DNA of 40,560 bases from Verrucomicrobiota bacterium (GTDB lineage Bacteria > Verrucomicrobiota > Verrucomicrobiia > Chthoniobacterales > UBA10450): contig VBQC01000003.1 in assembly GCA_005887825.1 (NCBI GenBank), positions 1 to 40,560 of the forward strand, written 5' to 3'. Positions 921-21,845 of this stretch are shown piece after piece. Numbering within the stretch: the stretch's first letter is position 1; each line of letters opens with the position of its first letter. The position numbers were made by a program, and so were the translations under genes. The notes below the pieces were generated by a model. The model did no database searches. It was given only the letters and a program-made list of their open reading frames with translations, and was not told where the DNA came from.

Positions 921-1268
921 ATGAAAAAATTCGCCTCTCCCGGCACCCCAATGCCGCGCAAAGACCGTCCCAATGTGTTGCCGCTCGAAGGCGAGATCGA
1001 TCTTCACGTTTCGCCCACCGTCACGGCGTCCCTTAACGCAATGATCGAGAAAAAGCCGAAACGACTCGTGGTCGATCTTTCCCATGTCACTTACATCGAC
1101 AGCGCTGGACTGGCGGCATTTATCGAAGCAATGCAAAAGGTTGAAGCCTACGGCGGTAAATTCGCGCTGGCTGGTTTGCAGGAAACGGTGCGCTCAATTT
1201 TCGAAATCTCGCGGCTCGACCAGGTATTTCAGATTTTCCCGGACGTGGACACAGCAATGTCTGGGTAG
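921..1268 (+). CDS. STAS-domain protein (anti-sigma factor antagonist-like)
   Basis: A 115-residue single-domain STAS protein. Residues 19-110 show the usual order: a first strand (LPLEGEIDL), a helix, the strand LVVDLSHVTYID, then the DSAGLAAF loop at 60-67. Serine 61 is the residue phosphorylated by anti-sigma kinases in the SpoIIAA/RsbV family. No kinase or sigma factor gene is in the window, so the partner is unknown. ATG 921 and ATG 951 are both possible starts, since the first ten residues are outside the domain. The stop TAG (1266-1268) is the first three bases of a 15-bp inverted repeat shared with the convergent glycosyltransferase gene. Confidence 0.8.
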   Translation: MKKFASPGTPMPRKDRPNVLPLEGEIDLHVSPTVTASLNAMIEKKPKRLVVDLSHVTYIDSAGLAAFIEAMQKVEAYGGKFALAGLQETVRSIFEISRLDQVFQIFPDVDTAMSG

Positions 1269-1441
1269 CGCACAGCTTGCGCGCGTGGGTGTCCCGCGTG
1301 TTCGTGAGCGCCTTCTCGCGATCGCGAACTTTCCTTTGAATTCCACAGCGGGCGACCTTTGAAATACAGGCAAAGTCCGTTTTGGCGAGACACCAAAACC
1401 AGCGCGCGAGACGCTCGCCACGGCGGGCAAGCTGTGCGCTA
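1266..1441. repeat. Small element bounded by 15-bp inverted repeats, filling the gap between convergent genes
   Basis: TAGCGCACAGCTTGC (1266-1280) is perfectly repeated in inverted orientation at 1427-1441. The outermost TAG of each arm is the stop codon of the gene reading into it: STAS from the left, glycosyltransferase from the right. The 146-bp interior has no coding capacity. The layout resembles a MITE or REP-type element and may also act as a two-way terminator. Confidence 0.7.
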
Positions 1442-2539
1442 GCCTGATCCGATCTGGAACAAAATCGCGAGCGTTTGCTCAACGTTTTTTGAAATGTCGA
1501 ATTGCGCCGCGCACTCGCTATTTGTCGATCGGGCGGCGGCACGCCGCGCTGCATCCGACCAGAAGCGGATCGCATCGCGCAAGGCCGCCACGTTGTTCGC
1601 GGAATCAACGATTGATCCGTGCAGCCCATCGGCAATAATTTCACTAAAGCCATTGCTGTGAGTTGTGATTACCGGAATTCCGCAAGCGAGTGCTTCCAGA
1701 CAGGCGTTGGAAAACGGATCGTAAATCGTCGGCAGAATGAAAATGTCCGCCGCCGCGTAAATGCGCACAAGATCCGGCATCTCGCCAAGAAACTGGATGC
1801 GTTTGGATTTGTAATAGCGCTGGTTTCCACGACCGGCGACGAGCAAACGCATTTTTCGATTGTGACACAGCGCCATCGCTGCGATTGCGAACCGCAAACC
1901 TTTTCGTTCCCAACCGGAGCCAGCGAAAAGCAACGCGATTTCGTCCGGCTTCACGTTCAATTCATCACGAGATTTTTCCCGAAGCTCTGGATCGAAGCGA
2001 AATTGCTCGAGCGGGATTCCGTTTCGAACGAGGGTGATATTGTCGGCGGGATAGCGGTAAAGATCGATAATTTCGCTTTTAACCATTTGCGAATTAACGA
2101 TTACGCGGCCGGCGCCACGATTTGCGAAGAGAGCTCCCTCGAGTTGCAAAATGTCGCGATGCTTGCGGTTCAGCCCTCGAATAAAACGTTCCAGTGGTAT
2201 TTCAAATTTTCTTCTGCGAGCCAACCAGGCGCGATGGACGCCATCACCAGCACGGTAAACGTCGCAATTCCAGACACGCTCAAGACTCATCAAGACATTG
2301 CAGCGAATCTGCGGTCGTACTTGTTTTAAGCCGTTGGCGAACCCCAGTACCGATCCGGACTGCAAGCGGCGGCGTGCGCCGAATGGCCACTCGGTCTTCG
2401 GCCAATCATGTGTCGTAATGAGTTGCGCATCATGTCCGGCCCCGACTACACCTCGCGCAAGCCGTTTCAAATACGCTTCCGCTCCGCCGGTCTGTGAATA
2501 GCCGCGGCGGACAAAACCGATGCTTAGCTTTCTTGTCAT
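1439..2539 (-). CDS. GT4-family glycosyltransferase, WaaG-like
   Basis: A 366-residue glycosyltransferase with two Rossmann-like halves (GT-B fold). The N-terminal half has a glycine-rich loop after strand 1 (YSQTGGAEAYLKRL), the acceptor-side region of GT4 enzymes, and the motif CDVYRAGDGVHRAWL resembles LPS core glucosyltransferase WaaG. The C-terminal donor half has LLFAGSGWERKG and the EX7E-like stretch PFSNACLEALACGIPVI. It probably adds a sugar to the LPS core at the cytoplasmic face. Its neighbours (GT4, heptosyltransferase, msbA) support this. The ATG at 2539 is preferred because the domain starts at once (MTRKLSIGF). An in-frame ATG at 2566 adds nine residues encoded by repeat sequence. 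The ATG itself belongs to repeat family A. Confidence 0.82.
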   Translation of the reverse strand: MTRKLSIGFVRRGYSQTGGAEAYLKRLARGVVGAGHDAQLITTHDWPKTEWPFGARRRLQSGSVLGFANGLKQVRPQIRCNVLMSLERVWNCDVYRAGDGVHRAWLARRRKFEIPLERFIRGLNRKHRDILQLEGALFANRGAGRVIVNSQMVKSEIIDLYRYPADNITLVRNGIPLEQFRFDPELREKSRDELNVKPDEIALLFAGSGWERKGLRFAIAAMALCHNRKMRLLVAGRGNQRYYKSKRIQFLGEMPDLVRIYAAADIFILPTIYDPFSNACLEALACGIPVITTHSNGFSEIIADGLHGSIVDSANNVAALRDAIRFWSDAARRAAARSTNSECAAQFDISKNVEQTLAILFQIGSG

Positions 2540-2562
2540 ATCGAGAGTAGAGACATTCCTTC
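2535..2562 (-). repeat. Dispersed repeat family A, diverged copy, at the start of the glycosyltransferase
   Basis: On the minus strand this reads AATGTCTCTACTCTCGATATG followed by ACAAG, a diverged form of the segment at 181-210 and 13771-13802. Its ATG is the preferred start of the minus-strand GT4 gene. It lies in the short divergent gap to the plus-strand glycosyltransferase at 2623. Confidence 0.55.
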
Positions 2563-2622
2563 CCATCTCCTTTCAAGACGACACTTTACTTGCTCCACGT
2601 TCACCAGAATAGTTGTAACCCG

Positions 2623-21757: not shown

Positions 21758-21845
21758 GGTGAGGTGGCTGAGTGGTCGAAAGCAGCGCTTTGCTAAAGCG
21801 CCGTACCCCAAAAGGGTACCGAGGGTTCGAATCCCTCCCTCACCG
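21758..21845 (+). tRNA. tRNA-Ser (anticodon GCT)
   Basis: An 88-nt class II tRNA without encoded CCA. Acceptor GGTGAGG (21758-21764) pairs with CCTCACC (21838-21844), discriminator G. The anticodon arm is GCGCT-TTGCTAA-AGCGC with anticodon GCT. The long variable arm GTACCCCAAAAGGGTAC folds on itself. The T arm is GAGGG-TTCGAAT-CCCTC. It reads AGC/AGT codons. Its 3' end is the attachment site of the island that follows. Confidence 0.95.

Follow-up and report, generated by a model that had tools for sequence, protein, structure and literature searches.

The ends of GTAG-type REPs 'often provide' a TAG stop codon to flanking ORFs (Di Nocera, De Gregorio and Rocco 2013, PMC3733652). In the excerpts of that paper used here, the verrucomicrobium O. 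terrae is described as rich in GTAG repeats (families GTAG-17, -19 and -20 are named), and intragenic REPs are mentioned, many of them in DNA-repair genes. RAYTs have been proposed as the movers of REPINs (PMC3116915 and PMC3733652, both in excerpt). The element described here belongs to this known kind, since the supply of TAG stops by GTAG-REP ends is in print. It gives the printed remark a concrete form: a clear case of a REPIN that re-ends two genes in their overlapping 3' ends, with empty-site orthologues.

Structure of the element between the STAS and glycosyltransferase genes

The window is the whole stretch of DNA that was analysed (40,560 nucleotides; contig VBQC01000003.1 of the Verrucomicrobiota assembly GCA_005887825.1). 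The element lies between two convergent genes, which encode a STAS-domain protein and a glycosyltransferase (GT). Coordinates are those of the window; the evidence is given in brackets.

921..1268, plus strand: STAS-domain protein, anti-sigma-factor-antagonist type, 115 aa (PF01740, E 3.1e-25; TIGR00377 above cut-off)
1263..1444, no strand assigned: REPIN, two inverted GTAG-type REP units and a spacer (inverted repeat, fold, covariance model built without the window copy, family comparison)
1263..1331, plus strand: left REP unit, with GGGTAG head, hairpin A with an extra AGCTTGC stretch, hairpin B and GAACTTT
1266..1268, plus strand: TAG of the left REP head, stop codon of the STAS gene
1332..1372, no strand assigned: spacer (compared with the spacers of other copies, no clear match)
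1373..1444, minus strand: right REP unit, with GGCTAG head, hairpin A with a similar extra AGCTTGC stretch, hairpin B and GGACTTT
1439..1441, minus strand: TAG of the right REP head, stop codon of the GT gene
1439..2566, minus strand: GT4-type glycosyltransferase (GT, group 1), 375 aa (PF13692, PF00534)

The sequence TAGCGCACAGCTTGC is found exactly at 1266-1280 (plus strand) and 1427-1441 (minus strand). The preliminary description was right in placing this 15-bp inverted repeat between the two genes and in reading its outer TAGs as their stop codons (STAS, 1266-1268; GT, 1441-1439), which 170 bp separate. It bounded the element at 1266 and 1441; the inverted repeat and the filling of the gap stand, and the family alignment moves the borders three bases further out on each side, from GGG at 1263 to GCC at 1444. 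When mismatches are allowed, the arms extend to 1260-1284 and 1423-1447 (25 nt, 88% complementary). The 13-mer GCGCACAGCTTGC, with up to two mismatches, has 4 matches in the window against a shuffle mean of 2.23, and is exact only in the two arms. Folded as single-stranded DNA, 1260-1447 reaches -57.4 kcal/mol (z -6.15; equalled by 0 of 200 shuffles); folded as RNA, it has a z of -5.48. The two REPs are inverted and form a hairpin, as in a REPIN. The covariance model matches both arms, at 1263-1331 (plus strand, E 9e-4) and at 1373-1419 (minus strand, E 7e-8); the head of the right unit at 1444 is set by reading. The sole Rfam match in the window at gathering thresholds is a tRNA at 21758-21845.

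The copy is odd in two respects. The GTAG tag is intact on the left head only (GGGTAG), the right head being GGCTAG, i.e. CTAG; and both arms carry, relative to the family form, an extra AGCTTGC... stretch after TAGCGCAC, which is unique within the genome. The head pattern GGSTAGCGCACAGCTTG (17 bases) is found in 2 other genomes of 83, once each: in G077 within a REP of the same family that has a similar extra stretch, in G076 within a repeat with different flanks. Since the exact 15-mer TAGCGCACAGCTTGC has no copy in the genome beyond the two arms and the head pattern occurs once in each of these two genomes, the outside matches would not place the window subtype any further.

The repeat family and the stop codons at its borders

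The genome searched comprises 3.06 Mb in 367 contigs. The element as query gives 26 matches in it, and a strict two-ended pattern gives 19 full elements (reversed control: 0). The common form of the family is GGGTAGCGCACGCGTCTCGCGTGCTGG, a second hairpin and a GAACTTT-like motif, repeated in inverted orientation past a variable spacer; a REP unit thus has two hairpins and about 53 nt. In L010, L029, L086, L011 and L012, the REP arms hold extra small palindromes (around CCAGTCCGGCTCGGACT or TCCGGCAGCYGCCGGA), like nested hairpins. A covariance model built from 44 units, window arms excluded, recovers both window arms and brings the REP units of the genome to at least 104; this is a lower bound, 150 of 4097 first-look candidates having been scored. 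These 104 units form 40 inverted pairs and 24 singles. With stricter filters, 57 of 61 genomes from its taxonomic family carry the repeat. Other copies, for which the preliminary description proposed a search, therefore exist as 104 family REP units, although the exact 15-mer has no second element.

Two genomes of two other genera (G010 and G019) were used for comparison. Their set consists of 46 inverted pairs (92 heads), drawn from 117 of 162 model matches, with weaker or unlisted matches and 25 singles left aside. Genes were called by a simple codon-score method of the authors rather than by a published gene finder. By these calls, 37 of the 40 own pairs and 37 of the 46 pairs in the relatives lie outside genes. 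By gene context, the own pairs are unidirectional (23), divergent (7), convergent (6), inside genes (3) or unclassified (1); those of the relatives are unidirectional (24), divergent (4), convergent (9), inside genes (8) or mixed (1). The TAG is kept in 91 of 104 own heads, a figure biased upward because the model was built from TAG-bearing units, and in 67 of the 92 heads of the relatives.

Among the 104 own heads, 48 face a gene 3' end and 49 a 5' end; called genes contain 6, and 1 is without a gene. The head TAG is the exact stop of the upstream gene for 10 of the 48 heads that face a 3' end. For 4 of them the gene supplies TA and the head's first G turns it into a stop; for 1 the stop lies inside the element; for 26 it lies elsewhere, at most 65 bases before the TAG; for 7 it is further away. 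In the relatives, 42 of 92 heads face a 3' end, 6 of the 42 give the exact stop and none has the stop inside. The gene stop thus precedes the head TAG in 37 of 48 own cases (including the 4 completed by the head's G) and in 36 of 42 cases in the relatives. The supply of stops, whose frequency the preliminary description proposed to check, is recurrent (10/48 and, in two other genera, 6/42); it is a by-product of tight packing rather than a rule, and recurs all the same. Double stops, supplied by both heads of a pair, are rare: 2 of 40 own pairs have them (the window copy and C25:32086), against 0 of 46 pairs in the relatives.

Some genes read through the whole element: 3 in the own genome and 9 in the relatives, 5 of the 9 at heads without an intact TAG. 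Genes that enter a head end at the TAG (10), inside (1) or not within the element (3 read through) in the own genome; the corresponding numbers in the relatives are 6, 0 and 9. Pooled, 29 genes enter a head; the border TAG ends 16 of them, 1 has its stop inside the element and 12 continue through it. Frame 0 is thereby used in 16 of 29 cases against an expected one third (p 0.013), and in 16 of 24 when only heads with an intact TAG are counted (p 0.0009); this test was devised after the data of the first genome and rests on the authors' own gene caller. The effect is carried by the own genome (10/14, p 0.004); in the relatives alone it is non-significant (6/15, p 0.38; intact TAG, 6/10, p 0.08). 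In the 91 TAG-bearing units, taken as 53 nt, the forward strand has 9 stops in addition to the head TAG, and the reverse strand has 16. In 300 dinucleotide-keeping shuffles, the mean is 30 forward stops (minimum 16) and 50 reverse stops (minimum 37); the copies are related, so the 91 units are not independent events. The scarcity of other stops fits a pattern in which a gene stops at the border or passes through.

Origin of the window element

GT matches are found in 61 of 61 genomes searched in the taxonomic family. The named relatives of the GT comprise two MAGs, on which the taxonomic assignment of the window rests, 'Verrucomicrobia bacterium isolate AV60' at 80% and 'Spartobacteria bacterium isolate Centralia_MAG_554' at 67%; a Gluconobacter follows at 25%. 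The junction was compared in the best 29 other GT loci; tblastn finds STAS in 27 of them and not in L106 and L125. In 16 of these 27, STAS and GT share 31-52 bp at their 3' ends, tail to tail, and both stop at TGA; a gap of 23-96 bp separates them in 5; in another 5 (L101, L110, L114, L115 and L126) the junction holds 431-622 bp of other inserted DNA. The remaining locus (L113, genome G049) holds a canonical REPIN of the window's family, whose two TAGs end both genes.

Several further features of these junctions were seen. The STAS-GT junction is a variable site, other DNA being present there in five genomes. The inserts of about 620 bp in L101, L110, L114 and L115 were suspected from their length to be REP-RAYT elements, a reading that was rejected: their ORFs (141-213 codons), judged by reading, do not resemble RAYT. 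Two tandem STAS matches replace the single one of the window in L116, L117, L119, L120 and L121. Near the GT end of L106 lies a minimal palindrome, GGGTAGCGCGCGCGTCACGCGTGCGCTACCC, like two heads fused without a spacer.

The GT extends beyond its last aligned residue by 7-15 residues in the 16 overlapping loci, and by 15 in the clade members L102, L104 and L108. After position 371, there are 4 residues in the window, 3 in L113 and 15 in L102, L104 and L108; the window GT is without the antisense tail of about 11 residues. The STAS protein ends in ..AALAAA in L102, L104 and L108 and in ..TAMSG in the window. These C-termini agree with the preliminary suggestion that the element had inserted into, or trimmed, both 3' ends, which the 31-52 bp overlap in 16 of 27 loci and the GT shorter by about 11 residues would also indicate. 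Against the case of a lone element beside genes with unaltered C-termini, copies of the family are many and the C-termini differ; the exception is the exact 15-mer, found in this element only.

A candidate mover is present. The genome has six PF01797 genes: five are RAYT-like (NF047646, 64-94 bits) and one is IS200-like (L042); the NF047646 cut-off of 80 bits is passed by two of the proteins (L045 and L046). The RAYT on contig C320 (77.5 bits) lies between inverted REPs of the window's family and is the only one of the six with such REPs on both sides; the association of a REPIN with a RAYT in the same genome is given by this gene. Matches to its protein with E up to 0.001, distant RAYTs included, are found in 80 of 83 genomes of the taxonomic family. 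In all 30 of the best RAYT loci of the family, inverted REPs of the window's family flank both sides (in L150 and L161, the contig end truncates one flanking REP). Beside the REPINs there are also REP-RAYT-REP elements, which hold little besides the RAYT between their REPs.

The window element is very probably a non-autonomous REPIN of a GTAG-type family, most likely moved as single-stranded DNA by a RAYT, which inserted into overlapping 3' ends and whose TAG heads ended both genes. The family is spread through a Verrucomicrobia clade (Spartobacteria-like). The mover would be a RAYT like the one that lies between REPs of this family in the genome, acting through a single-stranded DNA intermediate. 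The insertion would have hit both convergent genes where their 3' ends overlap. With the TAG heads in frame with both genes, each would have been stopped immediately at its element border. The loss would be confined to the last codons of STAS and to the antisense tail of about 11 residues of GT, probably with a near-neutral effect. Because the REP arms have few stops on either strand besides the head, such an insertion would tend to have one of two outcomes, a gene end at the border (frame 0) or read-through (frames 1 and 2). The hairpin may later have acquired a role at mRNA 3' ends. No exactly excised allele was found; presence and absence are seen between species only.

A selected hairpin, acting as a bidirectional terminator or as a stabiliser of mRNA 3' ends, with or without a parasitic origin, is a possible but rather doubtful explanation. 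The very stable RNA fold, the heads that face a gene 3' end (48 of 104 own, 42 of 92 in the two relatives) and the filling of the junction in two clades speak for it. As a terminator, however, the main stem is not followed by a T-run, and the element does not show the stem with a T-run on each side that a bidirectional intrinsic terminator has; the 3 terminator-like sites in 1000-1700 (shuffle mean 0.8 sites) have 5 pairs each, are weak and lie all on the minus strand. Selection for a hairpin at this place also agrees poorly with the 16 of 27 orthologous junctions where the genes overlap without an element, and with the window element being one among many copies dispersed in the genome. A unique IS- or MITE-like element had been considered and was dropped after the repeat family was found. 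A classical MITE, moved by a DDE transposase and having terminal inverted repeats and a target-site duplication, would share inverted ends and a variable middle in outline; it is very improbable, since the ends consist of a TAG head and a hairpin, are accompanied by a Y1/HUH transposase gene in 30 of 30 tested loci, and are flanked at the window copy by no direct repeat visible by eye. A chance inverted repeat in ordinary intergenic DNA has next to no probability, given the 0 of 200 shuffles that fold as well and the many copies of the family.

Whether the REPINs of the window and of L113 go back to one insertion was also weighed. A single old insertion, lost in the lineages between, would account for the same STAS position and for the similar GT ends (4 and 3 residues past 371). 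It is improbable: in the tree of GT and the neighbouring hydrolase, the window groups with L101, L102, L104 and L108 (97/96) and L113 falls in a separate clade (100/97), and overlapping-gene loci lie inside the window's own clade. The spacers of the two elements are similar only at the level of unrelated copies, i.e. at background, and their REPs are of different subtypes. An ancestral overlap followed by two separate and probably independent REPIN insertions, in the window and in L113, is the simplest reading.

RAYTs within housekeeping genes and comparison with described systems

In 25 of the 30 best RAYT loci, the RAYT occupies only part of the open frame, which spans 600-1052 codons and in some loci is truncated where the fetched sequence stops; in the other 5, the frame has 220-271 codons. 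The host parts of 66 loci, which include later additions and at least three that repeat one place, cluster into groups of 37, 13, 5, 3 and 2, with 6 single short ones. NCBIfam, run on one to three members of each group, names the hosts RecG, MetH, AlaS, CarB and ThrS, i.e. the DNA helicase RecG, methionine synthase, alanyl- and threonyl-tRNA synthetase and carbamoyl-phosphate synthase. Each named host is split in two, with an NF047646 match between the parts (64-85 bits, mostly just under the cut-off).

L138:238-3015, L143:514-3243, L175:528-3494 and others; own genome L177:2453-4732 (C109): RecG + RAYT (NCBIfam on L175 and L138; L177 is cut by the contig end and its RecG match is under the cut-off)
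L206:2-4393: MetH with in-frame RAYT domain
L215:315-4013: AlaS with in-frame RAYT domain
L162:508-2988: ThrS with in-frame RAYT domain
L220:734-4861, own genome (C269): CarB with in-frame RAYT domain

RecG with a RAYT in frame and without a stop is found in 36 of 83 distinct genomes, the own genome included (33 by comparison with uninterrupted RecG; L150, L161 and L172 by clustering only). An uninterrupted RecG above the cut-off is found in 30 of 83. G052 has both forms, with an embedded RAYT identical to the one in G004, and G068 carries an additional RecG fragment that is uninterrupted; contamination of these MAGs is therefore possible. The RecG matches break off at reference residues 372-407 and restart at 343-386, which is compatible with one loop in all 33, the breakpoints being fuzzy as linkers align by chance. 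The RAYTs in this loop belong to several lineages, also within the window's genus (tree in which 20 of 47 inner branches are weak). The 22 RecG-RAYT loci scanned for the window's REP family are flanked by it on both sides; the remaining ones mostly have a different repeat type. Another RAYT lineage in RecG (L165-L171, L175-L177) is preceded by a second repeat type, whose translation reads LGSAGCQPAVSGSLPD or similar.

The head is recognised in 12 of 14 RecG-RAYT fusions, its TAG being there in another frame. Differences per codon position between pairs of the 14 fusions are 0.196/0.133/0.528 in the RAYT and 0.198/0.132/0.514 in the following RecG part. Judged by this pattern, the embedded RAYT appears to vary like a constrained coding region. 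The authors' HuH pattern is found in 56 of 66 RAYTs and their tyrosine pattern in 61; pattern misses such as DHMH may still be functional, and others such as GHVH or DLMH look damaged.

On the sequence evidence, it is rather probable that the REP system is compatible with translation: with a border TAG in one frame and few other stops, it would end a gene cleanly or be read through. REP-RAYT-REP elements would then behave in an intein-like manner, without known splicing, as an in-frame domain of RecG, MetH, AlaS, CarB or ThrS. The RecG loop has apparently been reoccupied by different RAYT lineages, and the equal codon-position difference rates of RAYT and RecG suggest a transposase that would be maintained and expressed within a DNA-repair helicase. 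The system may have the transposase of its repeats read inside vital proteins. If this is true, REP/RAYT elements would have an intein-like way to persist, in genes whose loss is penalised, and the persistence of RAYTs in genomes could be put to a direct test. No report of a RAYT inside recG or another housekeeping gene was found in the excerpts of the open-access literature searched (PMC6006769 included), and the in-frame RAYT copies in vital genes of relatives look new.

The window family has in common with the GTAG REPs of PMC3733652, as excerpted, a GTAG tag with a stem-loop, inverted dimers and a position near gene 3' ends. GTAG REPs are given there as 20-40 bp, whereas the units here have two hairpins and about 53 nt; this comparison is one of size. 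The excerpts of PMC3733652 contain no description of a RAYT nested within a second gene, as is found here. With the REPINs of Bertels and Rainey (2011; PMC3116915, in excerpt), the element shares the inverted REP doublet with a spacer, the hairpin fold and the link to RAYTs; those REPINs come from another phylum and have shorter REP units, and REP-RAYT-REP elements exist here in addition. Five of the six own PF01797 proteins match the model of REP-associated tyrosine transposases (NF047646). Unlike that type, the own C109 and C269 RAYTs and many in relatives read as internal domains of RecG, CarB, MetH, AlaS or ThrS. REP ends that supply stops are already known; the window adds a double stop, an overlapping ancestral site and, with L113, a second case.
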